A stretch of 64,000 bases of DNA from contig NC_068571.1 in assembly GCF_025698545.1 (NCBI RefSeq), positions 49,757,733-49,821,732 on the forward strand. The letters run 5' to 3'. This DNA is from Gossypium raimondii (lineage: Eukaryota; Streptophyta; Magnoliopsida; Malvales; Malvaceae). The notes beneath the pieces were generated by a model. The model made no database searches, was not told where the DNA came from, and was given only the letters and a program-made list of their open reading frames with translations. Of the stretch, positions 11,887 to 63,170 are shown piece after piece; position 1 is the first letter of the stretch, and each line of letters opens with the position of its first letter. Position numbers and translations under genes: made by a program.

Positions 11887-14800
11887 TTATATATCTTCGG
11901 AGTTGGTTGCATCAAATAGATCTTTGTCAGACCTGCAAATCTCCTTCATATCAGTAGAACATGGCAGAGTACTAATCCTATCCATATTCTCTGGATTTCC
12001 TGTCACAGCTATAGAATTAACCTTATCCATATCATCACCATTTATTTGGATAACTTCTGAATCAATCTGTAAACATGAGTTGTTTTCATAGAAGAAAACT
12101 TCCTCAGAAAGAGAGGAGTTGGACTTTAACCTAACCACATCACCATCCTGATGTTGAGCATCAGTATTCCTTCCTGTAGATGACTCAACTTTAAGTCCAG
12201 GAATTTCTGAATGCAAACTACCATTCAATGACAAGGACGGAGAAAGACTAGAAGTGATGGACTCATTTTCAGGTAGGCACTGAATTTGCTCCTTTGGACA
12301 ATGTTCAACTAAAGCTTTCATTGATTTCTGTTCATCATTCCCCTGAGTTCCTGAAGTTTTAAGACATGAGGGGCGTACAGAAACCCTGCACAAATAGTAT
12401 CCCTGTAAGGTCACTGACATAAAGCACTTGCAAAGATGATTACACATACAATAAAAGCAAAATTTTTTACAACCAAAATCCATGTATCCCTCCATTACCA
12501 ATTTAAAAGGGGCCAGTGATGCAGGAGTATCTAAATCTTAAAATCTCAATGGCTGCAATTTTATCTCAACAGGTAAATTCAGATCAAACATTCAAGATTT
12601 AGGGGGTTCTAATTAATACATGCTGCAAAGTAAATAAAAGCTTTGAACAGAAGAATGGGAGAAAGAAAAATGGCTTTAAGTGCCAGAATTTACCAAGGAA
12701 AAAGGTACCTGCTATATAAAAGCATATATGCAACCTGAGAAAGGACCTCTGCCAATTCAACCCTCATAACCTGGAGAAAGTGGCAGATCACATCAAGTTC
12801 ACAACAGAGAACTCAAGTAAACTTCTTTTTTTTTTTTTTCTGTCTACCACTTTGTAATGATGATTGAAGGCGAATGACACAGTGGTCTTGGCACAAAGAA
12901 AACTCCGCAGAGAGATTCTTTTAATAGGTACAAGACTCACAATCAGAAAAGGGAAATGGTGGTAAATGCACGTGTGTGCGTGTGAGAGAGAGAGAGGGAG
13001 TACCTTACAGTCATCAATTCTATACCAATTTCCATTGAAATCTTGGGTATAGCAGATGTAATGACCAAAAAAGGATGCATTTAACATATCCAAATGGACA
13101 ACAACTGCATAAAGTTTGTATACATTGGTATCATCTCCATCTCCACTCATGTAAGAGGTAAGATCTAATGTCTCAGGAAAGCTAACTCTTTTGTTGAGTT
13201 TCCCAAACCGGCCACTCTGCAAAGATTTTCAATAGAAATTTCAGTCATAAAAAAGGGTAAACTACACCCGAAGTCACTAAACTATTAGTAAGTGTACATT
13301 TTGGTCAACTTTAAAAAGTTACAAAATGATCTCTAAACTATTCAAAAAATTTCATTTAAGTTACTAGGTTGGTAAAGTCGATGTTGTATGGCCTTCTTTA
13401 TTCGCACTGCCTGCACTAATCGAACGCTCTCATCTCCTTCTCTTCTACAATTAAGTTTTTTTTTTCATGAAACAACTTTAAACATCACGAATCTACGAAC
13501 TAGAATTCAAACAACTTTTTTCTCCAATCTTTGACATTGACTGTTAGATCGACTTATATCTATGGTATGTTCTTCCACTTGTCAATGGGTACCAATCCAT
13601 TGTATCGATAGTTGAATCATTACTTGAAGCTAGCTGGACTTTCTAAAAAAAAAAAACTTAACAGCCCAGTGACTTAAATAAAAACTTTTGAATAATTTAA
13701 TGATCATTTTATAACTTTTAACATTGCGTGACCAAAATATAAATTTCCTAATAGTTTAGTGACTTTAGGTATAATTTACCCAAAAAAATCAATGATTCTA
13801 TTAACCAGCAAACGAAAAGAAGACAGTAAGCATCAACAAAGCAAACAAATAACATATGCAAGATGTAGGTAAGACCTCAAATCTTTTTAAGGCAATTGTA
13901 AGAATGTTAGGAGCCCATAGTATAGTAAGCCGCTTCCATGCCTTGACATAGTCATTGCAACTGAAAATAATAAACACCATAAACAAACCAAATAGGTACA
14001 CATCAATGTACAATAAAAGTATATAAAATGTAGCTTAAATTCCAGTCTCAATAATTTAAAACCATGCAAACTAAATTATACAGATCTTGAGAGCAAGTGA
14101 AGGGGAATGAATGATACCCATCACATTTGTACATATTTTCCCCATGAAGCCACTCTTTAACAGTGAATTGGTCAAGGCATTCCTCCAACGATGAAGCATC
14201 TCCATTAATTTCAACAGTTAAATCCATCATATTTTCACATTGATTTGAAATCTTATTGCAATTTGTACAAATCACCTGCAAGGTTATAACATGATGATAA
14301 AGCAATATAAATCAGGGTACAAACTTAAGCATTGAATAATACCAAGCAAGGTGATTTATATGAAGGATTATGGCAAAATCATCTGAAATATCCTTTAGGG
14401 TGTGCTTTGTTGGGTGGGAAAGTGGAAAGATGGGAGGAAGGAATGGAAAAGTGAAAAGAAAATAAATTTTGAGTGTGCTTCGTAGGGAAGGAAAGTGAGA
14501 GGAAAGAAAATTGAAGAGATGATCATTTTCCATCCAAATGCATAAAAACCAATATTTCCATTTTGAAATGATGAGAGGGGAGATGTGTATGTTACCTCAA
14601 AAATACGCACTTTTCAAATGTTTTATTTCTTTTCCTTTCCTTTTTCAACTCTGCCAAGCAATGGAGGTAAAAATAAAAATTACTTTTTCTTTCAATTTTT
14701 CCATCTCTCCTACCAAGCACACCTATGGAAAGAAAAAAAATATATTTTCCCTCATTCTATTTTTCTGCCCCTTCAATTTTCCATCTTTAGAAGAATGGAA

Positions 14801-17279
14801 AACATTATTTTTCTTTCCATAGGTGTCCTTGCCAGGAGAGATGAAAAAATGGATTCTATCCATTGCTTGGTAGAGTTGAAAACTGAAAGGAAAGATAATA
14901 AAACATTTAAAAAATGCATAATTTTGAACTAACATACGCATCTCTCATTTTCTCTCCTCTCATCTTTCCAATTTGGAAGAATTAGTTTTCATGCATTAGG
15001 ATGGAAAATGGTCATCCATCCTATTTTCTATCCTCCCACTTTTCTACTCAACCAAGCATACTCCAATTTTATTTTCCTTTCACTTTTCCACTCCCACCTC
15101 CCATCCCTCCTCTTTTCCTCCCAACCAAAAACACCCTTAATGTTAAGATGTTCAGACTCTGAACAAACGCTGGCCCAGTTAAGGAGCAACACTCTTATTC
15201 ACATTGAGTTTCCAATTCATATGGCTACTCTATTTTTTCTTCAGGAGGGGGGGAGATGGAGGAAACAGCCTAAATTAAGGAGCAAATTGAAAAAACACAA
15301 TGTTGCAGAACATTGTTTGCTGAATCCAAAGTTACAGTATCTCTATCAATACCAAATAACCAAAGTTCAATAGCAAAAGGGTGAAAATCAATTATTCTAA
15401 TCAATAGGTTACATCACCTGCGACTGTAGATGACCACCAAATATGTGCTGAATAAGGGTTGTCTCTTGAGAGCTACGATCAACTGCTTTTTCTCCACCAA
15501 ATTCATCAAGGCAGACTGATTGCATTGTATCAATAGCAAACCTGAAAAAAAGGCAATGTTAATTACAAATAAATCTAGAAGTCAACAACTTCCTCTTGTT
15601 AATTTCAAGATGTTAAAAGAGAATGCAATCAAATATGAGATGCTAACCTCATGAATTCATGAGCATCCTCCTGTCTTCCATAACCAAGATTACCTCCAAT
15701 ATTAGGCAACCTTGAGAGAATATTAGTTGGTGAAAATGGATGAAGACTTTGGCTTGATCTTTCAATGTGAATTTGAAGTTCGCACAGAAAGCACCAATCA
15801 TTACGTCTGCCTGGAAAGAAGAAATTACAATGAAGGTCAGGTGCTGTTCAACAACCTTGAGAGTAGCAGTTTTAGTTTCTAAATTTACACTCTTTCCGAT
15901 GCCCTTTCTCCAATAAGTAAGCAACAAGAGGCCGAGTAGAAGCAAGGCATTGCAGAACAACATTGGCAAAGCAACTGTAGGCAAAGGACAAACACGGAAA
16001 AATAAATAAAGATTAGAATAAGAAACATAAACTTATCCCGTCTAATAAAAAGTTCTAACAAATAACAATAATAATAAACAAAAGCTTGAACAAAAAGAAA
16101 TATAAGCATGGTAAATATGAACCTATTCCCACAATTTAAGAGTCCACGCGGAGGGAATCCTGGTTTCTCCCAGTTGAAAAGTTCTACAAACTCATTATAT
16201 GGGAAAAGAACCTGCAAAAAGGAGAAAAAAAAAAGAGGAGAAGAAGAAGAAGAAGAAGAAAGAATGCGTTTTAAATTTACTTCTATTGGTTTTAAAATGG
16301 GTCAAAGGATTAACCTCTGTCGGCTTCTTGCTGATTGTAGAGGTTCCGCGGGCAGGAACCAAAGCAACTCCTGAAAATGATTTTGTGTTAGCAGTCTGTG
16401 CTGAATTTACTTTGCACTTTGTCTTATGCCCGTCTTTCCAGTGCACCTTCTGGCAAGTTAAGGAACTGAAAAAGAAAGTAAAAGTAATGAGATCAAACCA
16501 TTCAAATGATGAATACATAAATTAAGAAATTAGTAAATCATCGTTCACTACCACGCTAATGGAGAATTCTAGTTTTATTATATTGGACAACAAATGCAAA
16601 TTTTGAAGTCAAGGATCATTGAGATTAAGAGGCTTTTCGATAACTCATGCAAATAGGACTAGAAATATGGCATCTTTCCGTAGAATTGACTAATAGGTGA
16701 TCAAAGTATCGACATTGAACTTTCAAGGCTTCTAATTTATACACACCATTAGTGTTGAATAAGTCCAGATTCTATAAGCAAAAAAATCCAGGAAACCCCA
16801 ATATGGTAGCAAAAACAATTCTTTCTATATTCTGACCTATAAATAAGAAAATACCAAATGGTTATTTTATTTTAAGAAAAGAGAAGTAAATTAAAAAGCA
16901 TAAAACTTGCAACTTAATAGAAGAAAAAAAACATTCCTAATTTAATTTTCGTTATCTCGAAAAGCAAAAGAAACTTCAGCTATAACAATAATGAAAAACA
17001 GCAGTAATCATCGCAAAAAAAAAAAACCCAAAATATTTGGGGGGGGGGGGGAAGCGTTATGTACCAATAACGAACAGATTTACACCGCGAGCACTTCTTG
17101 GAGGCGGGATTGGAACAAACGGCGCAAGTAGAGACGTCGTTGTCGATGGGGATGGAAGGCATTATTTGTTGACGATCGAAATTGGCGTCCACTCCGAAGT
17201 ATTTCGAGGCCGTATTTTTTATCAGGTGAAGAGCCCCAAAGCCAATATAAAAAGCGTGAATAAATTGCAGGATATGCAA
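11887..17279 (-). CDS. UBP18/19: Ubiquitin carboxyl-terminal hydrolase with MYND finger (UBP18/19 type)
   Basis: Cysteine protease that removes ubiquitin from substrates; UBP15-19 family members carry an N-terminal MYND zinc finger. Exons on the minus strand: 17065-17279, 16315-16465, 16211-16123, 15889-15974, 15648-15810, 15418-15541, 14118-14275, 13876-13960, 13004-13216, 12709-12770, 11887-12385. They sum to 1845 nt in frame, about 614 residues. A hydrophobic N-terminal segment precedes [13 protein letters not shown]. The MYND cysteines read CAVC...CSRC...YCSLTC...HKTKC. The Cys box is [15 protein letters not shown], split between exons 3 and 4. Zinc-binding pairs CTNC and CDGC follow, then QEDAHEF and the His box [11 protein letters not shown] serine-rich tail ends at TAA. 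No in-frame ATG exists at the head of exon 1: the frame from 17279 opens on TTG below a stop. The first in-frame ATG is at 17162. An out-of-frame ATG CAC GTG at 17299 may be the old start. Confidence 0.85.
13255..13781. mobile_element. MULE-like foldback MITE in UBP intron 8
   Basis: A 527-bp element with ends GGGTAAACTACACCCGAAG and, in reverse complement, GGGTAAATTATACCTAAAG. Each end is followed by GTCACTAAACTATTAG, so the inverted repeats run for tens of bases. It is flanked by A-runs that hide the exact duplication. A diverged full-length copy is at 63171. It is spliced out with the intron, so the protein is unaffected. Confidence 0.8.
14398..15136. mobile_element. Tourist-like foldback element in UBP intron 6
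   Basis: A 739-bp element with ends GGGTGTGCTTTGTTGGGTGG and, in reverse complement, GGGTGTTTTTGGTTGGGAGG. It is flanked by a perfect TTA duplication (14395-14397, 15137-15139). Both arms continue with GGAAAAGTGAAAxGAAAATAAA-type sequence, and the middle is a further set of inverted copies. A 3-bp TTA duplication and GGG...CCC ends fit PIF/Harbinger. Open frames in it are chance products of purine-rich DNA. Confidence 0.8.
16234..16262. repeat. Purine-rich (GAA)n tract in UBP intron 2
   Basis: On the minus strand this is a TTC/TTTTC polypyrimidine run leading into the exon 3 acceptor at 16212. It probably serves as an unusually long splice-acceptor pyrimidine tract. Confidence 0.75.
17039..17051. 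repeat. G13 homopolymer beside the UBP exon 1 donor
   Basis: Thirteen G in a row on the plus strand (C13 on the gene's strand), starting 13 bp inside intron 1 of the ubiquitin protease gene. Confidence 0.9.
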
Positions 17280-17299
17280 ATTTATTTAAACACGTGCAT

Positions 17300-18064
17300 C
17301 TGCACGGTTGCTAGTTTTTCTTCATCGAATTTTTTAATACCAACATAAACTTCATTACTGAATTGTAATTCTGTTATTGAATTTACTCTTACTCAACCCC
17401 AAAAGGGTTTAAGATGAATTTGAATAAAAAACTTTCCAAAATACAAAATTAGCAAAATCCAACTTTTATAAAAACAACAATATCAGCAGCGGGGTTAATT
17501 TCTATAGTGTGAGCTTTTCCTTTTCGTGTTATAATTAGCAAAGGAAGGTATCTTATGAAACAATGCCAAGACCCAGACGCTGAAACCCTCTTCGCTCTAT
17601 TTAACTTATGCCTAGTTTCATGCCGTTTTTGAGGTCAAGGCAGTTAGCCCTTCACTTTCATAGGTATAGTTTCGGATCAGGTAAGTTTAAATAGTAAAAA
17701 TTATTATTTATTTAGTTAATTAAATATTAAAATAATTATTAATATTTCATAATTAATAATTTTAAATAAATAATTTTATTTATTAATTAATTAACAGATT
17801 AAAATTATTCGACTAAAAAAATTTAAATCTGACCATATAATAAATAAACATTGAAGGGAAAAGAAAAACAAAATGACTTTGATTTATATGTTAGATCCGC
17901 TCATAACTCCAACCAGGAATCCCTTTGTGTGATTTTATACTTTTAGGAATAGAATATATAAATATCGTTGAATCTCTAAAAAAAGTTTAACTTAGCATTG
18001 GTTAAAGAAGAAATGCATATTAAAGAATAGTAACATGTTGGATATAAGTAATAATGTTTGGGAT
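17300..18064. other. AT-rich intergenic DNA upstream of UBP
   Basis: Presumed promoter side of the ubiquitin protease gene. No clear TATA box, ORF or repeat was recognised. The stretch 17690-17800 is dominated by short AATTA-type palindromes. Confidence 0.4.
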
Positions 18065-18730
18065 TGACAAATGTCTTATACTACAGAATTTAAAAGTTAA
18101 TTAAGGAACAATTAGTAAAACGAGAGTTTTAGGGAGATTAATAAAACCGTAAGTTTTGAGGATCAATGAAATGGGGCATTTTGTTGGGAGTTAAGGGTTT
18201 AGTGATACGGTGCATTTCATTCGGCTGAGTAACAACCTTTGGTAACAACCTAACAATCCGTTGTAATTGCATTTTTGATTGGCTCTTAAAACCAATTGAA
18301 AAATTTATGCTTCTTGAAGTAATAACCCAGTTAAAATTCGGTTTCTTTTTCTCTTCTCTCTTTCCTCTCATTTCCCCTCCTTCCTATACATTTTTTGTTT
18401 TGTAACCATTGCTATAGAATTTAAAAGTTAGTTAAGAATCAATTAGTAGCAAGTTAGTAAAATGAAAAGTTTTAGAGAAATTAATGAAACAAGTGTTTTG
18501 TTAGGAGTCCTGACTAAGTAACAACCTAACAGTCCATCGTAATTGCCATTTCTGATTGGCTCTTAAAACCAATTGGAAAAGGTTATGATTCTTCAAGTAG
18601 CAAACCAGTCAAAATTCAATTTATTTTTCTCTCTTCTCTCTTTCCCCTTGTTTGCCCTTTTTCCTCTTGTACATTTTCTGTTCTAGCTCTCCTTATATAG
18701 GCAAGCCCACTTTGATCCAACGATTGCAAA
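18065..18730. repeat. Direct duplication of an LTR-like segment (about 340 bp, two copies)
   Basis: Copy one (about 18075-18410) and copy two (about 18412-18725) share AGAATTTAAAAGTTA, TTGATTGGCTCTTAAAACCA, CAATTG and a pyrimidine-rich TTCTCTTCTCTCTTTCC run in the same order. The second copy continues into CTCCTTATATAGGCAAGCCC, which looks like a TATA box followed by a transcript start. This resembles U3 sequence of a copia-type LTR, with two partial units side by side. No element body follows, so it is a relic. Confidence 0.55.
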
Positions 18731-19370
18731 TGATCTCAATGGATGATCTAGATCAAATTCTATAACATTCCCGCCTCACCCTATTAAATGCTATATGATG
18801 GTGGATTATTTTAGAGCTCCCAAAACATTCTATTTGATTCTACTAAGATTCAGCCTCTGTCAGACTTCTAGAGTATGAAGCACTCTAACAACCTCATGGC
18901 TTAGTTGTCTTTTGTTTGCTCGGTTTCGGACCTAATGAGGCCTTGCTCACCCGCGTATTGTAACACAAGAAAGGTGTAAACCACAAGTCTAGTTTCTCAA
19001 GCTTGCTTGCTGGATTGAGCCAAGTGAGTAGCACTGAAAGGGTTTGAAAAATGCTTAAAATGACATACTAAAGGGTCCAATAAATAGGACCAAGCCAACA
19101 AGATCCAAAAAATATCCAAAAGGCTCAAATTAACCCTTCAATTGCTATAAGCTCTACAAGCCTAGAGCTATTGGGGTTGGACTTAGTACTAGGATAAAAA
19201 ACCCTAATAGTATCAACAAGGAAAGGCTAAGGGAGCTTCACAATAACTCCAACGTACGAGTTTAACCCTAAATCTTGGTGGCACATGGTGAATGTCAACA
19301 AAATGGTGCTGGTGGTTGGCGAGGACTCATTAGCAAACTAAAAGCCAATGGTCATTGATAAGAGAGACAA
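18731..19370. other. Unassigned spacer ahead of the DELLA-motif ORF
   Basis: No ORF of note. The composition is less AT-rich than the surroundings and the style suggests transcribed retroelement sequence. It may be the continuation of the LTR-like block just before it. Confidence 0.3.
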
Positions 19371-19580
19371 ATGAGAGCACTAGTAGTTCAATTAAAGGAA
19401 AATGATGAGAAAGTCAATGGTATGGATGAGCTCTTAGCCATTTGGGGTTATAGAGTTCGGTCTCCAGACATGGTTGATTTGACTCAAAAGTTGGAAATGT
19501 TGATTATGGAAACTGCTAAAGAAGGCAGGATTAAAAATGGTTTAAGGAATTTGGAGTTTCTAACTTGGTTAAGGATTTAG
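19371..19580 (+). pseudogene. Orphan DELLA-motif fragment (truncated DELLA/GRAS-type protein)
   Basis: A 69-codon ORF starting with ATG. Residues 17-51 read as a DELLA domain: GMDELLAIWGYRVRS then PDMVDLTQKLEMLIM. This matches the [27 protein letters not shown] region through which gibberellin-repressor proteins bind the receptor GID1. The later TVHYNP motif and the whole GRAS domain are missing. After ETAKEG the sequence turns unrelated and stops. The 16 residues before the motif do not match a normal DELLA N-terminus. Most likely it is a gene fragment moved by a transposon. A functional short peptide that binds GID1 is possible but unproven. The motif call is strong; the functional reading is speculative. 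Confidence 0.75.
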
Positions 19581-19799
19581 AGGGATTTTTTTAGTTTAAA
19601 GATTGACAATAACCATAAGTATTTAACAAATTCACCTCGACTTTAATTTTTCATTCACATTAGTGTTTGAAATGCCAAATTGCCAACTTGGCAGCAAAAA
19701 TCAATAGAAGGTACCATCTTTCTATTTTTATAATGTAAGGGATCATTTCGCAAGTTTTTCAAATAAATGGACTGAAATGCAATATGAGTAAGATACTTT

Positions 19800-20129
19800 T
19801 TATCTCGATAGCCTTCCTTTGGATAAACAAATACTTGTGGAAAGATTTTTTTGATTTTTTTTTTGAGATTTTATACTACTCTTACGAACCCCAAAACTTT
19901 TTTGTTTTGTGTACTTAGTATAGTACCCTAAAGCCTCTTCCAACGATTGAAATTTCATTCCTATAAATGGTTGAAGAGACTCTTGATTCATATCTTTCTT
20001 TATCTTGTCTTCATCATGATTTTTATCATTCAAATCTTGAGAAACATAGTCTTGATTATTTCCATTAAAATTCGATTCATTACCTGGAAATGTAATCATC
20101 ATAAACTTGTAACAACTTTTTTTTATCAA
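19800..20129 (-). pseudogene. FAR1/FRS-type DNA-binding-domain fragment
   Basis: A minus-strand frame of 109 codons. An acidic Asn/Asp-rich leader is followed by PFIGMKFQSLEEALGYYTKY and then KSFGVRKSSIK. This is the start of the FAR1 zinc-finger-like DNA-binding domain of FHY3/FAR1-related proteins, which derive from MULE transposases. The domain breaks down after the basic stretch (poly-Lys/Asn, then CLSKGRLSR) and ends at a stop. No MULE transposase or SWIM domain follows. The ORF's opening Met precedes any conserved sequence. I read it as a decayed fragment of a FAR1-like gene. Confidence 0.7.
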
Positions 20130-21136
20130 TTAGTAAAATAAAACCTAAATTACACATCAAAATTTCATACTAAAGAAAACAAGCACATGATTTCATCGAT
20201 CTTATTTTTACCCGCGGGATAATTGTGTTCTTGCTCAAAGTAGCAGGGCAAAATTTGGGAGTTGCGACCATGGCAATATATGAAAGTAATAACATCAAAT
20301 CATTGTGCAAGACTAATTTTTTAAATTGTATATGGTTTGAGGCAAGACAACTGATTGCAAATAATTTTCTTATATTTCATCTAGTTTTAAATAATTTTAT
20401 ATTTCAGTCAAATGAATCAAATAAAATAACATATCTAATATTTTTTCCATAATCTTACATTCCCTAATTTTATTACCAAAATAATTTTACATTCCTTAAA
20501 CCATATGCTCGTATAATTATCATTAATGCTTGGTAGATATTTTTCGATAGATTCTTTTTTGTGACTAAAGTATTTTTAATATCCTTTTTAGAATAAGATA
20601 ATTTTCGTGGGGTTGAGGCTCTCTCTCCAACAATATCATTTTTAAAAGGGTAAATTATCAAAATAGTCACTTTTATTTGTCTTAGGTTACATTTTAGGCA
20701 CTTATATTTGAAATGTTACGTTTTAGTCACTTACGTTATCGTGTTGTAATATTTTAGTCACTGAGCGTTAATTGTTATTAACGGTGTAATGGTAAGCTGA
20801 CGTGACACATTAGATCATCATTTCAAATGAAATTTTTTTAGATTAAATTATACAATTAGTCTATATTTTTTTTTCGTTTTGAGTAATTTAATTTTTTCTT
20901 TTATATTTAAAAAAAATATTTTTTCCCATTTTCTTCTCCTTCTCCCTCTATTTTCTTCTATTCTCCATTTTTTTAACGTAATTTTTCTATATTTTCCATT
21001 TGTTAAAACTAGCCCTTATACTTTTTTTTGAACAATTTATTTTTTTATTTTCCTTTTCTTCTTTCCTTTTATTTTTCTCTCTTCTCATATTCTTCATTGC
21101 AGAAACATAATTTTTGCCCACCAAAGAAACTAAGTC

Positions 21137-24100
21137 TGTAACACCCCTTACCCGTATCTAATGTCGGAACAGGGTACGAGGCGTTACCGGACTTAAAATT
21201 TCTTGAACATATAAAACCGGGTCATAAAATTTCGTCAACATGTATCATACTATAATTGGACATCCGAATATCCAATTTTACATACACATTCTCATACACA
21301 TCGTCATTCATGAAGTCATTTATAAACCACCTCCACAACATTCAATTATGCAATTACCACATACATGAATAATCACATCATAGGCGTATAACAACCATCA
21401 ATATTGGCCATCTCCAAATAGCCTTAATCAAAAAGAACATTTATTAAATAAGGGCCAACATTTTAGGCCATAAGAAATATGACATATATGACAAAACGAC
21501 CAAGCCTACTATACATGCCATAACCCAAAAATTAATGTATCTAGATATACCAACTGTTCCAATTGATAGTGTGAGCGAATCTCCAACATCCACCGATCCC
21601 CGAGCTAACTTGGCGATACTATAAGGCAAAGGAAAAGAGAGGGGAAATAAGCATAAATGCTTAGTAAGTTCATATGAAAATAATAAGAAATTAATAAACT
21701 TGTGTGGACAAATCCTTGAAATAATTTCTTAAGATAATATAATCATTTTATCACATGCTTACACCTTATTACTAATGTTCACATTAATTTGTCTACTTGA
21801 GTCACTGTCACTAAATTATTTATTTCTTGAAATACAGAGCTCCGAATGAAGAACCGTTAATTTTCTCTGAAACTAGACTCACATAATTTCTTACCATAAA
21901 AATTTCAGAATTTTTGGTCCAGCCAATTACTACAGTTTATTCATTAAAGATTCCCCTATTTCACTGCTCGATAGCTCTGACCCCCCATTCACTAAAAATT
22001 AATTATCTCTTTGCACAGAATTCAAAGCATGTAAATTACAAACCATAATTATTTTTGTACAGTTTTTAGTAATTTCCCAAATTTGGAATAGGGGATTTCA
22101 AATTTATTCTGTCCCTGTCTCACTAGAATTCAAATATCTCAAAATATATAACTCTTTTGCTTACTTTGTTTCCTTTATATGAAAATAGACTCATTCAGCT
22201 TTAATTTCATATCTCATACAACCTCTAATTCAATTCCCACCATTTTTGGTGATTTTTCAAAATCACGCAATTGTTTCTGCCCTAAACTGTTTTGTTGTTA
22301 AATTTACTCATTCTTAATTTCAATGTTTCATTTCATCGTGCCAAAGGGTTGATTAAAGATCGAACACATTGTTTGTAACATATATTTTCACTTAATTAGT
22401 TTTCTGATAAACACTTCGAAATAATCTCAGTTACACGGTGGATCAACACATAGCACCAACCTTATAGTCAATAGTACTCGGTGAAATCAGCACATAGCAA
22501 CCACCTTTATACTTAATGGTACCAGGTGAATTCAGCACATAGCAATCACTTATATAACCATTGGTATCCGGTGAAATCAGCACATAACAATCACCTTTAT
22601 ACTCAATGGTACCGGGTGAATTCAGCACATAACAATCACTTATATAACCATTGGTATCCGGTGAAATCAACACATAGCAATCACCTTTATTTTCATTAAT
22701 ATCCGGTGCAATCAGCACATAGCATCCACCTATATTTCCAACGATATCCGATCCATTCCGAAGGTTCAACCATAAATTCTCACTTTTTTTAAACATTTTT
22801 CCAACTCTTCCATATTCAACCGTAATTCATAATTCACCTAAATTAATTATTCCATATTCAATCATATCTCATAAAAATGTTAAAACGTAAGTAAAAACAA
22901 GGAATTAATCACATACAAACTTACTCGTTTGCATCCTTATCAATAATGCATCATAATCTGAGCACATTATTTATGAGTCTCATATATATACCTGTGCCTA
23001 GTCATAATACTCACATATCCTACTCTTACTTATCTTGAGCATACTTCTTGAATTTCCCGTTGAACTACTTGTAATATTAGTGATGTTCGGGATATATCGT
23101 ACACCTGGTAGGACGGCAATGGCATATGCCAGATATGGTCTTACATGAGATCACATATCGGTGCCGATGCCATGTCCCAAACATGGTCTTACACTGGCAC
23201 ACTCACTGTCATGGTCCAACCATGGTCTTTTTCGTCAATTCATCACAAGTTGTAGTACAAATGTATTTGACCCTGCATTTCTCACAATTGATCCTTCAAT
23301 CTAATCTCGTACTTGCATAAAGTCATGATTAAATAACAAATATATATATAAAATAATACATCATCTCAATTCAAATTTAATAATTGATCACTATAGACTA
23401 ACCATATGAACTTACTTCAACGCGAATCGATCATTTTGATTGATATTTCCCCGTACTTGGTCCAAATCTCGATTTCTTTGATCTAAAATGTCACATTTCA
23501 CTTAATTATCACTCACATTACTCATTTTAATACAAAAATCATACTACGGAAAATTTATAATTTTTCCCCTAAACTTTCTCATAATTACAATTTTACCCCT
23601 AGGCTCGTAATATGATTTTTATTCAATTTCCATAACATTCAAGGTCAGCCGAACCTTTTTCTCTTCTAAAGCAACCTCAAATTCTTATTATTTCACACTT
23701 TTAGGAGCATTTACAACTTTTACTAATCAACCCGTTTTAACCATTTTCAACGAAAATCACTTAGCAAAAATCATTCTCCTAACCTCGTGCACCCTTATTC
23801 TACCATTAAACATCAAAATGCACAAATATCTAGCATGGGTCAATTTTTAAACTTCATTTTTCGTGCAATTAAATGGTAAAAATCGAAAGGTTAAGCTTCT
23901 AGGATCTCAAAAATACGAAAAACATTAAAAACGGGGCTCAAATGCACTTACAATTGAACTTTGAAAAGGCTTGAAACCCTAGCCATGCTTTTCAAAAATT
24001 TCGGCAGCATGGAGAAGAGAATGAGCAGATTTTTGGGTTTCAATTGTCTTTTATGCCTTAAAACACTCAAATGACAAAAATGCTCTTTTTACTAAACCTT

Positions 24101-24416
24101 CAATTTTTACCCTTTCATGATTAGTTTTGTCCATAACAAAATATGATGGTCTATTTTCCATTTAAAGACCTCTAATTTAAACCCCCCATTTAAAACAAGT
24201 ACTTATGTTCTAGAACTCATATTTTGCAATTAATACAATTTAATCCCAATAATAAAATTGGGCACTTTATCGATAAAAAAAATTACTTAACAAAATTTGC
24301 ACACCATCACCCAAATATATCATAGACTCTAAAACAATCATAAATTAAATATTTCTACTTCGGGTTTGTGGTCTCGAAATCACTGTTCCGACTAGGCCCT
24401 ATCTTAGGCTGTTACA
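21137..24416 (+). mobile_element. Solo LTR (TGTAACACCCC family), copy A
   Basis: A 3280-bp sequence from TGTAACACCCCTTACCCG to CTTAGGCTGTTACA, flanked by the perfect 5-bp duplication AAGTC (21132-21136, 24417-24421). No second LTR, gag-pol or primer site is present, so it is a solo LTR left by LTR-LTR recombination. Large parts match the copy at 52688 closely. The family is probably a large Ty3/gypsy element, judging by LTR length and termini. Short ORFs inside (for example 21444-21629, reverse) recur in the other copy at 52980 and are not genes. Confidence 0.92.
22440..22760. repeat. Minisatellite within solo LTR copy A
   Basis: About seven units of roughly 45 bp, each with CAGCACATA(G/A)CAATCAC followed by a GGTA(T/C)CxGGTGAA phrase. 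The units alternate between two variants (CTTTATACTCAATGG and TATATAACCATTGG). Confidence 0.85.
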
Positions 24417-25603
24417 AAGTCATTGTTTCTTTCACATGATTCCAAAATTGAATTTCACTCATAAACGAATACCAATCATTTTTAATCAAATCTCGATTCG
24501 AACATAACCTAATTTTGAAACTAAAATTGGATCTAACTAATCAATATAAAAAATCATATCCTTAATCAAATCTAAATATAAATTGAATTCTTTATATTCA
24601 AAATAAAAATTTTCCATTTCTAAACTTTTACAGAATCATGTAGATTATTCCTTTCATTTTCTTTTATTTTTTGACTAATAAAATTGAGCAAATGATAAAA
24701 TTGATCTAAACCTTCTTGGATATTCCCAAGCAAGTTTGATTAGAAGTCGAGCATGGATGAACCGAAGAGATAAAGGGAGCATGGAACCAAACTGGTTTGG
24801 GTGAAATTGAGGGTAAGTTTAGTAGGGTAGTCGTTTTAGTCATTGAGAGTGTAGAGCTCGTTTGAAGAATCCGTGAAATAACGTAGTTTCGAGAGGGCGA
24901 GAATGTTGTAGGTAAGATAGATAAGGTGGTTGTAGGGGTTGGTTAGGAAGTTAAGGGAATGAGCTCGAGAAACTTTGTTGAAGGTGGATTGCCATAAGTC
25001 ACAACTGGCGAGGTTTTTGAGTAAGGCGAGCTTGTGGGTTAAGTTATTGAGATATCCAAATTGGTTCGTTGAAGCAATGATAGACGATGAGGGTTTGTAA
25101 TTGTGGGGGTGAGAATATGCGAAGCAAGTTTTTTTTATTGTTTCAGCTTTCGCCTTTTCTTTTTTCACAAACATAAAAAAGTTTTAACAAATGGAAAACA
25201 TAGAAAAACTACGTTAAAAGATATGAATAAGGGGTAAAAACGAAGGGAGAAGCAGAAGAGAATGGAAAATAAAGAAAAAAATAAAGTTAAAAGAACATAA
25301 AAAAATTAAATTGCTCAGAATGAAAATATATGGGGACCATTTTGTATAATTTAATCTAAAATTTTTGTTTGAAATGATGATTTAACGTGCCACATCAGCT
25401 TACCGTTACACCGTCAACAAAAATTAACGGCTCAGTAACTAAAATATTATGACACGTTAACGTAAGTGACTAAAACTTAACATTTCAAACATAAATGACT
25501 AAAATGTAACCTAAAGTAAACAAAAGTGACTATTTTTATAGTTTACACCTTTTAAAATTAGAATTTAAGTTTTACCCCTTGATTTTATCATTACCCCGTA
25601 CAC

Positions 25604-27424
25604 TTATTTGGTTCCAATAAATTCATCTCTGTGTGTCATAATTTTGTTGATTCCATCATTATTATTTTCTTGAGAAACCAATGTTCCCATCCTTTTTAGC
25701 AGCAAATCAAAGTCATCATCGCTTTTCACCAAGCTAAGCCGTACAAATCTGCTTTCAGCACCGAACAAGCTACCATGACGTCCAGTTATATTGACCGAGT
25801 GGAGCACCGCGTTGCAATCTTTATCTTCTTCTCTTACACACTTAAGCCATGCATAAGCTGCCATCAAAACCAGCTACTCTTTAAGTTCACTAGTTCAGGA
25901 ATTTGTATATGACTGTGTGATGGGAAGAGAGTTAATAATTACCTGGAGTAGCTCCTCTGACTTTTTCGGAGAAAGAGCAGAATTGAGTCTCAAGTTCCTG
26001 GATTGAAAACCGCTTAGACAATGACATAGTTTTGCTCAACTTTCTCCAGCGGTTCCTCATTGTTTGGTATCCGAAGTTAAACATTTCCTTTCCTTCATTT
26101 TCAACGGCAACTTTTAGCAGCTTCAGAACTCGTAGCTGAGTCTCTCGAGCAACCCCATAGGTACTTAGATTCATATATGTTAGCATCCTTTGATGTACAG
26201 CCTCATCTTTTATTATCGCCCATCTAAGAAAAAAGAAAAAGCATGTTAAATTATTGCATATCCTCCAAAGAAAAAGCATCTTTTAAGTCCTTCAATATTC
26301 TTTGTTTTATATAAGTTACGATGTGTTATTTATTATTGACTAATGGTGTACAAGATCTATGAATATCCTCAATATGTATATATGCTTACCCAAATCTGCT
26401 TCCGCCATGTCCAGTAAGCTTTGAGAGAGTGAATATCATTAAATTTTCATCTGCTAGAGCTGGGATTGGTGTATAATGTGGCCAATAGTAAGCAAAATCA
26501 TGGATTGTCTTTGCCGATGGGCCTTGAAGTACTGCCTTCTTTAATTGGCCATCTGGATTGTTCGGTGAAGTCACAAGTTCGATGAAATTCCCTTTACAGC
26601 CACTATTATTGTTACACAATGAAGTATCTCCTTCGAACTTGTAATCCTCAGAATTGAAAAACTCAGTTTGTTCCTTGTAAATCTGTAGCATGAACATAGT
26701 TTGTCAATTTAAAAGCTAAAACGTAGATTACAATCCAGACTAGAGGAGGGCTTGAAGCTAACTGGATAGTATGGTGTTGAGGCAACGACTCTTGAAGGGG
26801 AAGATGGATGATTAGTAGTGGAGAGGGCATGCACTGCTGCATGAAGAAGTTGGGTAGCACCAACACCAAATATGATGAATCTTCCATCAGTCACCGCATT
26901 TCCGATAACTGCATGAAGTTTCCGAATTTGAGCGTCGAGTTCCTTTGAGATGAGGGAATCATCATTGAATTCATAGCTCATCCGATGCCATCCTGGAACT
27001 ACAATGGTGCTACTTGCTGCATGCTTCAACCAAAAGGGCTCCAAGAACATAGGATCTCCGCTGTAACAAATGAGATATTCACATTATTGATACGACCCAA
27101 GATTCTTAAAATAAATACCGGTCACTTTAGTTATATCTCCGTCGTCAATTACCTATCGGCGTCAGCGATACATTCAGGTAAAAACACAGAGCAGTGAGGG
27201 CCTCCATAACATGCGTTGCACTCACAAACAGGTTTTCCATCAAGGATTGATCCATCCAAGAAAGCTCTTCCATGTCCTGAACATGAGATGGATGCCACAA
27301 ATTCAGCTTCTGCAGTGGCACTCTTGGTCCAACTTTGCTCCCATTGGCCATGGAAGTACCAGCTATGAAATAGTAGCAGATTAAGAACGATGGAACAAGT
27401 TAGAAGAATCGTATTCCTAGACAT
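25604..27424 (-). CDS. TAR4: Alliinase-family aminotransferase (tryptophan aminotransferase-related, TAR3/TAR4-like)
   Basis: PLP-dependent enzyme of the TAA1/TAR and alliin-lyase family. The TAR3/TAR4 branch keeps an N-terminal signal or anchor and an EGF-like alliinase domain, which point to the secretory system. Exons on the minus strand: 27153-27424, 26763-27060, 26390-26682, 25943-26223, 25604-25857, totalling 1398 nt and 465 residues. Residues 4-22 are hydrophobic (ILLTCSIVLNLLLF). The EGF-like part holds CSGHGRAFLDG and CECNACYGGPHC. The alliinase C domain begins SGDPMFLEPFW. FGVGATQLLHAAVHAL, SPNNPDG, HDFAYYWPHY and the PLP lysine motif SKLTGHGGSRFGW are all intact, so the enzyme is probably active. 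The real substrate (tryptophan, another amino acid, or a sulfoxide) cannot be told from sequence. A foldback transposon starts 54 bp beyond the stop. Confidence 0.9.
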
Positions 27425-38521: not shown

Positions 38522-41059
38522 AATATCTCTTACAGCTGAAAAAATAAATAGTAACTAATTAAAAAAATATGTAAAAACAAATTCATAATATCTTGTTTCT
38601 AGTGATGTCTAAAAGATATGGATTGCTATTTATATCCCTTCTTCAAAAGCGTAGACTCATACGTAAAGACATGAAAGTCAATAGCTTTAACTTTATAAAA
38701 TTAACATAATATAGTAGCCTTCAAAAGGTTTTCATTTTATTTCCCAAAAAAGAAACTTTAATTTTTTTAAAAATTAAGAACAAAAATAATTAACAAGAAG
38801 GGAAGATTATTGAAAATTAATTATATCTTATTTTAATAATTAAAATATTTAGTAAAAGGGAATAAAAAGTAGCTTATGTAGAGGAAAAGGAAATTAGCAT
38901 GAGTGGGACATTATATAATAAATGGTACATGACTAGTATTAGTATAACATTTTTGCCTTCTGTCAGAACAACGTTTACCTTGACCAATTCAAAGCCAGAA
39001 TATGGCTTCTTATGCTCTAAGAAAACAAATCAAATTAATATACAATCTCTGTCATTCAGTTCAGACAAAACATCAAAGTGAAAACCCTCAAATGGATGAT
39101 TTTTTCCCTACTTAATAAATTTAAGAATATATTTTAATATTTAAAACTTATATATATTTATATGCCATACGTTTAATTATACTGAACATCAATCATTTTC
39201 AAAGTTAACATCATTCATAATAACATACTTTCCAGGAAAATTCGTTGGGAAGCTGAAATGTCATAAAATGGACAAGGACTTTGAAATGGATATATGTTGA
39301 TTTAGGACTTAACCGGAGAAGGATGTAGGGGAGTGAAGAGGGGTTATTGAGAAGTTCGATTTATTCGGTTGGGGTGGGGAGTTGAAGTTAATAGAGAATG
39401 ATAGTGGAATTTGAAGGTGGAGGATTCGGAAAATCTTGAGAAAATAGAAGCTTCGTATTCTTGAAGGGTTGATCCCCTTTTCATTGTTTTTGACATTTTT
39501 AGGTGAAGATCTCATGCAATGTGGTGTTAATGTGTTAGATTTGTCATCCAACCATCATTACAAAATATGTGAGAATGTCTTTAATGAGATGAGGATGCTT
39601 GTGATAAGGTTAATCTTATCACCCTTTCTAACTCTGATAGAATAGACCAGTTGAGTACACGTGATGTTTGATGATCAAACTATTTCATATTCCCAATTAA
39701 AACCGAGTCATCCGTTCTCCAAATAATTCTTCCAAAAAAATGAGTTCACGCCAGTGTTATCTCAACTTGATGATGATGACCTCTCCCAAACTTGTCATGC
39801 GTCTTATCCCAAATGGGGATATAAGAATATATTTACACATATATGAGTAATCAAGTATCTTACTTCTCGAATCTTAGAGCCCAATTTTATTTTCTTTTAA
39901 AAGGAAAAACCATAAATCCCAAACATAAAATTGTATGACTTGGTGTCACTTTTCCTATTAAAATTGTACTTTTTTCCTTTTTTTTTTAACTCAACCTATT
40001 AAAAAAGAGGAAGGATTGTATGAAATTGTGATTCTATATCATCTGATCTTATCCTTTTTCAATAGGAGAATGATAAATCAGATTTTTCCTTCTGATTTTT
40101 AGTGTTTTTAGCTGGATTTGAATTTTTTGAGGAGGAAAAAAAATTGAAAATCAAGAAGAAAAATCCAATTTGTCATTCTCCTATTAAAAACAGAGATAGA
40201 GATGACGTGAAATATTTACTGTTTCATACAATCCCTTCTCATAATAAAAAGGTACTTTAAAGCTGATGATGCCTTATTGTCTAGATTTTTGGATTTTGAA
40301 TATTAAGATTTAATTTTTTATCTTAGAAAAATTACGTGTTCCTAATTAATTTAATTAATTTAGTTATATAATTAATTGCTACTTTTAAAAAATTTGAAAA
40401 AGGCAATGCTTAAAGCGATGGTTTATATTTTAAATTTTAGCTCCTTGTTTTGATGAAGTAATTTCCTTTTTTTATTCCTTACTAATATAATTTATCCATG
40501 CTTCATATTGATTATTTATTTCAAATTATAGAGTGAAAATTTAAATATTAGAATATATTCTAAGTAAGGTTTTTAGAATCAGACTGTTGAAATATTGGTC
40601 ATGTCATTAGTTTGTACAATTTAATTAAATAAATCAATAAAAATCATTAAAAAAAATTCGGCTCAATTCATTTTTAGCCTCGTTCAATCAGTTCATACCA
40701 GTTTACGGCTCAATTGATTTGATGCTTCTCTCCGGACCAATATCCCGGCCAATCTGGTCTAGTTCAAACAACCATGACTCTTAGTCTTTGCACTTTGTAT
40801 ATTTGAAATTTAGCCATCCTACTTTTATTTTCAATAATGTAATCCATCTACTTTTTGGATTTAAAAATTCGTTTTCAAATTATATAAAACCATGTAACAT
40901 TATAATTGAAATTTTATTATATTAACTATTTGAATTAATCAATAACATTATACAAATATAAAAATCGATTTATGTTAAAAATTAAATCTCAATTTTAAGC
41001 ATATTAGAAGGACCAAAATTGAGAATTAACCATTGTTATAAAATGAAAAAAAAGCATGA

Positions 41060-52687: not shown

Positions 52688-55600
52688 TGTAACACCCCTT
52701 ACCCGTATCCAATACCGGAACAAGGTACGAGGAGTTACCGGACTTAAAATTTCTTGAACATCTAAAACCGTGTCATAAAATTTCGTCAACATGTATCACA
52801 CTATAATTGGACATCCGAATATCCAATTTTACATTCACATTCCCATACACATCGTCATTCATGAAATCATTTGTAAACCACCTCCACAACATTCAATTAT
52901 ACAATTACCACATACATGAATAACCATATCATAGGCGTATTGGCCATCTCCAAATAGCCTTAATCAAAAAGAACATTTATTAAATAAGGGTCAACATTTT
53001 AGGCCATAAGAAATATGACATATATGACAAAACGACCAAACCTACTATACATGCCGTAACCCAAAAATTTATGTACCTAGATATACCAAGTGTTCTAATT
53101 GATAGTGTGAGCAAATCTCCGACGTCCACCGATTCCCGAGCTAACTTGGCGATACTATAAGGCAAAGGAAAAGAGTAGGGAAGTAAGCATAAATGCTTAG
53201 TAAGTTCATATGAAAATAATAAGAAACTATTAAACTTGTGTGGACAAATCCTCGCAATAATTTCTTATGATGATATAATCATTATATCACATGCTTACAC
53301 TTTATTACTAATATTCACATTAATCATCTACTTGAGTCATGTTACTAAATTATTTATTTCTCGAGCTACGAACTCCAAATGAAGAACCGTAAATTTTCCT
53401 TGAAACTAGACTCACATAATTTCTTACCATAAAATTTAAGAATTTTGGTCTAGCCAATTAATCAGCTTTATTCATTAAATTTACCCTGTTTCATTTGTCC
53501 AACAATTCGACACTTCTTCACAACGAATCAATTTTCTCCCGTACAAAATTCATATGATGTTCTCGTTTATTTCACTTGAAAATAGACATAATAAGGATTT
53601 CAAACATATAAATTATACTCCATATTTACTTTTGTACAACTTTTACTGATTTTTCAAAGTTGGAACAGTGATTCAAACTCATTCCGACCTGTCTCACTAA
53701 AATTCAAATACCTCATAATTCACACTTCTTTTGCTTACTCTGTTTCTTTTATGGAAAAATAGACTCATTAATATTTAATTTCATATCTCACCCAGACTTT
53801 AATTCAATTTCCACCATTTTTTGTGATTTTTCAAAGTTATACTAATGCTGCTACCCACAACTGTTTTAAGGTCAATTTCACTCATTCATTAATTCTTTGT
53901 GTCCACTTTCATTTATATACACTTACACCAAAGCATATTATATCTTGGCACACAACAATCAAGTGATCATAGACACATCTTACTTGTTTGCATCCTTATC
54001 AATAATGCATCATAATCTGAGCACATTATTTATGAATCTCATATACATACCTGTGCCTAGTCATAATACTCACATATCCTACTCTTACTTATCTTGAGCA
54101 TACTCCTTGAATTTCTCGTTGAACTACTTGTAATATTAGGGATGTTTGGGATATCTCGTACACCGGTAGGACACCAATGCCATATCCGGATATGGTCTCA
54201 CATGGGATCACATATCGGTGCCGATGCCATGTCCCAGACGTGGTCTTACATGGCACTCAAAACTCATCTCGGCCGATGCCATAATGAAGTTGCACAATTA
54301 GTGCTCTTTCTCATCTAACCAAGTTGCTCTCGGTATCGCACACTTAGTGCCCATTATACAACATCATCATTTTAATTTCGCACACTTAGTGCCCATTATC
54401 CAACATCATTATTTTAATTTCGCACACTTAGTGCCGTTCATATAGTCATAGCTATTTCATACCCGCACACTTAGTGCTAAACATCGATAAATCGCATTCA
54501 CATCTATTTTTACTTTCCGAACTAAAACGCATTTAGCTATATATATATATATATATATATTTGCATATTCCATTTCAACATATATATAATTAACATTCAT
54601 TTAGAATTTAACATCTAATTGCTTATAAACTTACTATACGAACTTACACATTCTCGTAACATTATCGAATACTCAATGTTTCATACACTAATTGCCATCG
54701 TATAGCTGAAGCTATCATAATCTCGCACACTAAGTGCCTTACATAGCCGAAGCTATCTCAGTCTCGCACACTAAGTGTCATAAATAGCCGAAGCTATTCC
54801 AAATCGCACACTAAGTGCCATAAATAGCTGAAGCTATCTCGAATTTCATATTAAGTGCTAAACATAGCCGATTTATCGTTAAACGTGACTGTATTCTCGT
54901 GTATACAATTTATGAAATAACAAAGCATTAAAAGCATAATTGTAACAATGATTAACGCGTACGAACTTACCTCAACGTGAGTCGATTATTTTGATTGACA
55001 TTTCCCCGTATTTGGTCCAAATCTCGATTTCTTTGATCTATAATGTCACATTTCACTTAATTATCACTCACATTACTCATTTTAATACAAAAATCATACT
55101 ACAGAAAATTTACAATTTTGCCCCTAAACTTTCTCATAATTACAATTTTGCCCCTAGGCTCGTAATATGATTTTTATTCAATTTCCATAACATTCAAGGT
55201 CAGCCAAACCTTTTTCTCTTCTAAAGCAACCTCAAATTCTTATTATTTACAACTTTTAGGAACATTTACAACTTTTACTAATTAACCCGTTTTAACCATT
55301 TTCAACGAAAATCACTTAGCAAAAATCGTTCTCCTAACCTCGTGCACCCTTATTCTATCATTAAACATCAAAATGCACAAATATCTAGCATGGGTCAATT
55401 TTTAAACTTCATTTTTCATGCAAATAAATAGTAAAAATAGAAAGGTTAAGCTTCTAGGATCTCAAAAATACGAAGAACATTAAAAACGGGGCTCAAATGC
55501 ACTTACAATTGAACTTTGAAAAAGCTTGAAACCCTAGACATGGCTTGCTGAAAGTTTCGGCAGCATGGAGAAGAGAATGAGCAGATTTTTGGGTTTCAAT

Positions 55601-55974
55601 TTTGTCTTTTATGCCTTAAAACACCCAAATGACAAAAATGCCCTTTTTACTATACCTTCAACTTTTACCCTTCCATGACTAGTTTTGTCCATAACGAAAT
55701 ATGATGGTCTATTTGTCATTTAAAGACCTCTAATTTAAACCCCCATTTAAAACAAGTACTTATGTTATAGAACTCATATTTTGCAATTAATACAATTGGA
55801 TCCCAATAATAAAATTGGGCACTTAATCGATAAAATTTCTTAACAAAATTTGCACACCATCACCCAAACATATCATAGACTCTAAAATAATTATAAATTA
55901 AATATTTCTACTTCGAGTTTTTTTTTTTGGTCTTGAAACTACTTTCCGACTAGGCCCTATTTTGGGCTGTTACA
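52688..55974 (+). mobile_element. Solo LTR (TGTAACACCCC family), copy B, nested in copy C
   Basis: A 3287-bp LTR from TGTAACACCCCTTACCCG to TTTGGGCTGTTACA with perfect duplication AATGG (52683-52687, 55975-55979). Long stretches are nearly identical to copy A (for example the last 900 bp). No internal retrotransposon sequence remains. It was inserted in the opposite direction to its host LTR. Confidence 0.93.
54310..54870. repeat. Minisatellite within solo LTR copy B
   Basis: Repeats built on TCGCACACTTAGTGCC (first block, about 43-bp spacing) and AGCCGAAGCTATCTC with CGCACACTAAGTGCC (second block, about 42-bp spacing), separated by an AT-rich stretch with a (TA)n run at 54538-54560. Confidence 0.85.
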
Positions 55975-57223
55975 AATGGAATTGTAAATCATGAGATATA
56001 ATAAATTTTGTTAGATAAGGCAGAATAAATTCGGGTTCCCCTGTTCTGACTTGGAAAAACCATTAAAAATTTTATAAAAATGATTATGGGTTATAATTTA
56101 TATATTTAAAATCTTTAATGAGTCTATTTTCAATAGAAACAAACGGAGACATCATCCAAATTCTATATAAAGAGATAATTAATTTTTAGTGAGGAGGGGC
56201 GGAACTGTCAAATAGTGAAATAGGGGAAACTTTAAAGAATAAACTATAGTTATTGGCTAAGCCAAAAATTCTGAAAATTTTATGGTAAGAATATATGTGA
56301 GTCTAGTTTCTGGAAAAATTAACGGATCTTAATTTGGAGCTCTGTAGCTCGAGATATAAATAAATTAGTGACTCTGACTCAGACAAACAACTTGAATTTA
56401 CATACAGGAAAATAGTGATAGTATGGATAATGTTGTTTAAATGTGTTATACACATTAAGGATGTGGAAAGGAGAGGAGGTGGAGGAAAATTGGGAAATAT
56501 ATGAATGATTTGTGTATAATTGGTCATATGCTTGATTATAATTGATAAACGATGAAATATAAATGATGCTTATATTTGTGCATTATTGGTCATGGTCTAA
56601 GCTCATGTGTGAAAATAAAATTTCATAGTATGTGTGAATGGTATATTCGGTATATGATTTGGCATGAAGTAATGTCATGAACGGGTTAATGAATTAACAC
56701 ATGTTGGTAAGTGTGAAACATGAGTAAATGTTGTATTCATCCATGCTTATAATGTTTATGCTATATGTGTATTTGGCTAACATATTTGGCATACATGCTT
56801 AGGCTTTGGCCAAGTAGTGGTTGGATTATATCACGTTAAATTTATAAGTTATGCATTGAAATGGTAAGTGCCTAATTGGAAATATTCTTGTGATCATGAA
56901 AAGGGTGGTAAGGTTTAAATTATATAATCTCTAGTGAAATGGTTTATCATGTGGTTGGTTCCAAAAAGAGTTATGTTTAAATACACTAGCTTGCGACTAT
57001 GGTTGAATGATATGTTTATATCTTGTGTGATGTGCATAGGAAACGAGTGTGGAAAGATAATGAAATAGTAAGTTCATATGGCTGAAATTTAATGATTAAA
57101 TGTTAATTTCATGAATTATATAATGTATGATGAAATATATTTATTGTTGAAATGAGAATAAAATAAAAATGCGAAAACCGAATAAATGATCAAATTGAGC
57201 GGAACGCCGGATTTGAGTACTTC

Positions 57224-61902: not shown

Positions 61903-62455
61903 AGGCAACAAACCCAATATCAAAATTTTACTGTTCTTTTCTTTGTTTTCTGGGTTTTGCCTTGTTGTTCCTTTTTGGTAATCGGAAATGTAAAATTTTT
62001 TTGCTGAGAATGTTCATTAGATATGTGAAAGAGTTTCCGTCACAAATCCCTATTGATTACATTACAATCAAATTCCATATACGAAACAGGTTATAGTTTC
62101 TTGTATTGTAAAATTTTCAATCTTGGTGAAAAGATCAACCTTTTGTTTTATGATTTATAAATTCATACTGAAAGTCAAACCACATATTCCTCGAAAGGGT
62201 TGAAACTTTAGAATGGAAGCCCACAGTTTTTCTATGTCTCGTGGAGATCAGGGGACATGTGCTCATCTTTAATTGGTATCAAATCTTAAGCAGCTGAGCT
62301 GTCTGATTTACGCGGCGACTCGACGCCAGCATTTCTGCATTTGTAACTTTAAATTAAACTTCTAGTCGGTTTCTTTTTGTCTGTTTTAACTTGTGCTTAT
62401 AAATATTACTTCAATTTTATTTCTTTAGATATTATCAAAAATATACATATTTTTA
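61903..62455. other. GDU 3' UTR and spacer
   Basis: Contains the presumed 3' UTR of the GDU gene; T-rich after the stop. No other feature seen. Confidence 0.5.
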
Positions 62456-63159
62456 GGGTAAATTGCACTAGTAGCCACTCAATTATTAGTAAATTTCTTT
62501 TTTGTCACTCAACTATGAAAAGTTATAAAATAATCATCCAATTATATAATTTTGTTTTGTTTTTGTCACCACTCGGCTAATGGTGGCGGGTTTTAAAATT
62601 GACATAATAGCAACTTTAATTCTCTACGTTTATAAATTATGTCAACTTAATAATGATTTAAAAAAAGTTAACCTTCAACAATTACATATTGTGTAATTTG
62701 GTTCTTCTTCTTTTTTTGGTAGTTTTGCTTCTTCTTTTTTGTGGCATTGAGGGTTAATTTAAAGAATGAGAAAAATAATAATTTATTATCTTGAAATTTT
62801 GGTGCTTTCAAATTTTTTTGTATATTTTCAATCAAATTTAGCTAACAAATGTATTTTTTTTTTAGCTTTTTAGGTAAAAGGGTCATAAAGAAAAGCAAAA
62901 TTGCAAAACACACACCAAATTAAGCAATGTGTAATTGTTGAGGGTTAGATTTTTAGATTCAAGACTAAATAAACACAATGTATAAATGTTAAGGGTTAAA
63001 GTTGCTATTATGTTAATTATAAAACTTGTCACTGTTAGCAAGTTGGTGATAGAAAATGACAAAATTGAATAGTTAGGTGATCATTTTGTAACTTTTCATA
63101 CTTGGATGACTAAAAAATAAATTTACTAGTAGTTAAGTGGCTACTAATGTAGTTTACCC
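62456..63159. mobile_element. MULE-like foldback element with about 90-bp inverted repeats
   Basis: Left end GGGTAAATTGCACTAGTAGC; right end in reverse complement GGGTAAACTACATTAGTAGC. The arms continue with CCACT(C/T)AA and GTATGAAAAGTTA(C/T)AAAAT(G/A)ATCA-type phrases at high similarity for about 90 bp. Length 704 bp with no coding capacity. Confidence 0.85.
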
Positions 63160-63170
63160 TTTTTATTTAA

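Follow-up and report, generated by a model that had tools for sequence, protein, structure and literature searches.

A 69-codon open reading frame (ORF) in the window – the whole 64 kb stretch of DNA that was analysed – is very probably a truncated and diverged fragment of a DELLA gene, that is, a pseudogene. The sequence is DELLA-derived, its divergence is raised, its receptor-contact motifs are altered or lost, and no GRAS piece was detected in the window. On the reading that we prefer, the front portion of such a gene would have been copied without the TVHYNP region, the linker and the GRAS domain; the fragment would have drifted since truncation, and the ORF is most likely what stayed open by chance. 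We propose no molecular activity for it. We infer an origin from a truncated duplicate or captured copy, and a fragment that is not translated to any effect. Features are given below by coordinates and strand.

19371..19580, +: 69-codon ORF with a DELLA-like stretch, ATG to TAG, in-frame TAA upstream
19425..19511, +: DELLA-like core (DELLA...EMLIM, ORF residues 19-47), from Pfam PF12041 (E=1e-7) and GAI (E=2.3e-8)
19512..19577, +: ORF tail (ETAKEGRIKN...LTWLRI), in which the DELLA similarity continues weakly and ambiguously and the TVHYNP region is missing, from alignment
Window peptides with Pfam matches above cut-off: ubiquitin carboxyl-terminal hydrolase; B3 DNA-binding domain; alliinase-type domain; ligand-gated ion channel

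Similarity to the DELLA domain

The initial annotation had described a 69-codon ORF with an ATG and a stop, and this is what the window contains on its forward strand: the ATG lies at 19371, the TAG ends at 19580, a TAA in the same frame (19359-19361) stands just 5' of the ATG, and a C occupies position -3 relative to the start codon. The 69-residue product contains GMDELLAIWGYRVRS, followed by PDMVDLTQKLEMLIM. ORFs of such length are not rare near the DELLA fragment: six of at least 69 amino acids with an ATG occur in 17300-26000 (8.7 kb, the DELLA-like ORF counted), compared with a mean of 0.96 and a maximum of 3 in 50 single-base shuffles, and the entire window holds 47, genes included.

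The Pfam DELLA profile (PF12041) matches ORF residues 19-47 over profile positions 1-29 of 69, with a score of 32.2 bits (E=1e-7) that lies above the curated gathering cut-off of 23.8 bits. Among sequences of solved structures, GAI (2zsh) matches with E=2.3e-8 and five further DELLA chains with E=6.1e-7 to 2.8e-4. When DELLA proteins were searched against the window by tblastn, the ORF locus was matched by GAI (E=7.7e-8), 'DELLA protein 1' (E=1.0e-7) and RGA (E=1.1e-5), and the exact string DELLA occurs only once in the six frames of the window. The resemblance to the DELLA domain thus exceeds chance. The comparison of the 69-residue protein with DELLA proteins that had been suggested at the outset therefore bears out the DELLA motif as real: Pfam, GAI and tblastn agree.

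A frameshift-aware alignment of 19250-19800 with three DELLA queries used no frameshift for any of the three, and no disabling lesion was seen inside the ORF. Beyond the core the relationship is ambiguous. The tail up to IKN aligns to GAI and 'DELLA protein 1' past a two-residue gap, while RGA puts the gap elsewhere; the gapped GAI alignment reaches LTWL, close to the ORF end. Tail-only scores of 24, 22 and 20 were equalled by 12, 20 and 32 of 60 shuffles and are thus not significant. Two peptides in other frames were considered and rejected. STSSSIKGK, upstream, was considered as what might be left of a DELLA N-terminus in a shifted frame, but has no Pfam match, and a text search of the literature for its core gave no paper; it appears to resemble a cotton GAI protein, a likeness noted only after the peptide had been seen and not counted as evidence. 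KEFGVSNLVKD (19544-19576) was aligned to QEEGINHLSSD, and 20 of 60 shuffles scored at least as high.

Divergence of the core

Over a core of 28 residues the ORF is identical to GAI at 19, to 'DELLA protein 1' at 20 and to RGA at 15 positions. For the intact DELLA proteins the corresponding values are 26/28 (GAI and 'DELLA protein 1'), 24/28 (GAI and RGA) and 22/28 (RGA and 'DELLA protein 1'), where RGA carries one extra residue and for that reason loses matches at core positions 1 and 2. The ORF is therefore further from the three intact DELLAs compared than those three are from each other. Since it shares only 19-20 of 28 residues with two proteins that share 26 with one another, constraint on its core looks relaxed. 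Being truncated relative to its parent (29 of 69 Pfam positions) and more diverged in its core than the intact copies, the ORF has two properties expected of a pseudogene or gene fragment. Counting against decay, no stop interrupts the reading frame anywhere in the DELLA core, and all five residues of the pentapeptide are intact.

In a rough neutral simulation, a consensus core ancestor with random codons was run, without insertions or deletions, to eight replacements (n=3000). Of the runs, 63% were free of stops and 37% contained them; an open frame thus needs no selection. Among the open runs MDELLA was kept in 9%, and replacements were at least as conservative as those observed in 11% (in the ORF, six of the eight replacements from consensus score at least 0 in BLOSUM62, with a net sum of +3). 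These fractions neither demand nor preclude past selection, although 9% and 11% lean mildly towards it: the retention of MDELLA and the conservative replacements are a mild hint of constraint, which may predate truncation.

The missing remainder and its surroundings

The tblastn searches with GAI, 'DELLA protein 1' and RGA found no GRAS piece in the 64 kb window (the next best match has E=0.99), which confirms the earlier statement that no GRAS domain accompanies the ORF. Only one TVHYNP-like string within one mismatch occurs in the six frames, at 40218 (+), between stops and ~21 kb away, and one VHIID-like string within one mismatch lies at 2742 (-), near a stop; both are taken as chance. Because no broken DELLA remainder was detected in the window, the rest of the gene would be elsewhere or gone. 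The simpler reading offered by the initial annotation, a captured, dead exon piece, fits best when it is taken as a dead gene piece.

That a transposable element picked up the piece and carried it here, where it is now dead, is a possible, if doubtful, sub-case of the fragment reading. Repeats are frequent in the window, the immediate surroundings are repeat-rich (the segments 20640-21010 and 21137-22319 recur at other places in it), and the failure to find a DELLA remainder in the window is also consistent with capture. Against this, the inverted repeats that flank the ORF, among the 25 listed of 35 in 16000-24000, are short (at most 34 nt) and imperfect (71-85% complementary), the window contains no second copy of the ORF, and a neighbouring ORF that looks FAR1-like by eye is without a Pfam match. 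In a search of 16000-24000 for terminal inverted repeats around the ORF (as in a Pack-MULE), a test that covers only elements with such repeats, none was convincing among the 25 pairs listed of 35.

Several further features of the window were recorded. The FAR1-like neighbour is a 109-residue open stretch at 19803-20129 (-), which has no Pfam match, whole or shortened, and which we take by eye to resemble a FAR1-type region. The segments 21137-24418 and 52688-55976 share three collinear pieces of like orientation, which are 83%, 91% and 93% identical, and probably represent a single repeat element that is present twice; 22442-22735 is a tandem array of a 45-base unit (~6.6 copies), and one of its minus-strand frames reads through as a repeating peptide. 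Three segments (14394-15140, 62455-63160 and 39994-40253), each of which aligns with its own reverse complement at 70-73%, look like fold-back elements. Ten window peptides were compared with Pfam: four lie above the curated cut-off (listed above), and a MYND finger match lies under its own. Together with the A+T-rich composition of the window, these matches would suit a chromosome of a flowering plant. A local tandem duplication (18242-18399 and 18518-18682, 82% identical, ~276 bases apart) sits between ubiquitin-hydrolase-like pieces and the DELLA fragment.

Alternatively, the ORF might belong, as a single exon, to a spliced gene that has gone unrecognised. ORFs of plants can indeed be exons. 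However, the tblastn searches of the window yielded nothing else of DELLA or GRAS type, and DELLA coding regions are usually without introns: the exon reading is very improbable.

Receptor-contact motifs and known DELLA proteins

The motif consensus strings were taken from an excerpt of PMC5226729 (DeLLaPhiLxYxV for the DELLA motif and MAxVAxxLExLExPhi for LExLE). The ORF had been called a near-full match to the GID1-binding DELLA region, and this stands for the DELLA motif only, which retains eight of nine consensus positions (one Leu is replaced by Trp). In an ungapped reading LExLE retains four of nine, too few for the ORF to be counted as carrying it, and the second Glu of the motif is Ile. 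TVHYNP is gone, in agreement with the initial annotation: its best placement in the tail recovers two of eight positions.

According to excerpted text of PMC9285615, GA-dependent interaction with GID1 requires every one of the motifs DELLA, LEQLE and VHYNP, and the same three are named as important for GID1 binding in an excerpt of PMC6335063. The latter excerpt describes a tomato allele in which an insertion and substitutions alter LExLE; plants with it are dwarf and did not respond to GA. The weaker GID1 contact of this allele is a modelling prediction, and the GID1 contacts of the second Glu of LExLE are likewise assigned by modelling. In an excerpt of PMC6137977, direct contacts with GID1 are cited for two residues of TVHYNP, Val and Pro. 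The same study reports that rice SLR1 with a single substitution in the TVHYNP region still interacted with GID1, though more weakly, which counts against an absolute three-motif rule.

The claim that the DELLA region alone contacts GID1 sits poorly with the necessity of all three motifs (PMC9285615, in excerpt), one of which the ORF has lost while another is mostly altered. The premise of a decoy – a microprotein made of the DELLA region alone, which would be translated, bind GA-GID1 and compete with DELLA proteins of full length – is weak because two of the three receptor-contact motifs are lost or altered. The eight DELLA positions, the Pfam score above the gathering cut-off, the mild conservation hints from the simulation, the GRAS-less gene models reported in other plants (PMC7409643, in excerpt) and the residual binding of the rice mutant (PMC6137977, in excerpt) all argue for it. 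However, LExLE stands at four of nine positions, and its second Glu, a modelled GID1 contact (PMC6335063, in excerpt), is Ile in the ungapped reading of the ORF; TVHYNP, whose Val and Pro are cited as direct contacts (PMC6137977, in excerpt), is absent. A decoy or GA-regulated peptide, as the initial annotation had envisaged, is thus unsupported, and we regard the decoy as most unlikely. There is equally little chance that a GRAS-less DELLA peptide is expressed and kept, and that its DELLA helix alone engages GID1 or some other partner, weakly or in a different manner.

The two outcomes differ in what they would mean. If the ORF were translated and its product bound GID1, gibberellin signalling would have a natural competitor here; the motif losses make this unlikely. 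As a gene fragment the DELLA piece matters little, because plant genomes hold many gene fragments and because the GRAS-less DELLA models described below have already been reported.

Searches for relatives were made in collections described as viral, prokaryotic or plasmid DNA; plants are not among them, and the misses therefore say little: the ORF pattern gave 18 matches in viral contigs (none confirmed), the pattern from the DELLA alignment gave 116 matches in prokaryotic genome contigs and 15 in viral contigs (none confirmed in either), and the DNA of 19200-19700 had no match among plasmids. In print, a survey of 58 plant genomes includes DELLA gene models that hold only the DELLA domain, and its excerpted text names apple models without GRAS, such as MDP0000192154 (PMC7409643). 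A DELLA domain without GRAS is thus not a new kind. A survey of cotton GRAS proteins, as excerpted, used a GRAS profile and appears to have dropped proteins without a GRAS domain (PMC5944045); a fragment of the present type would therefore not be listed there.

Compared with known systems, the ORF resembles the N-terminal DELLA domain of GAI, RGA and PF12041 in the DELLA pentapeptide followed by the GY.VRS and KLE residues. Unlike GAI and RGA it is without TVHYNP and without a GRAS domain, and its LExLE is mostly altered. Like apple MDP0000192154, to which it is likened by description only (PMC7409643, in excerpt), it combines a DELLA domain with the absence of GRAS.
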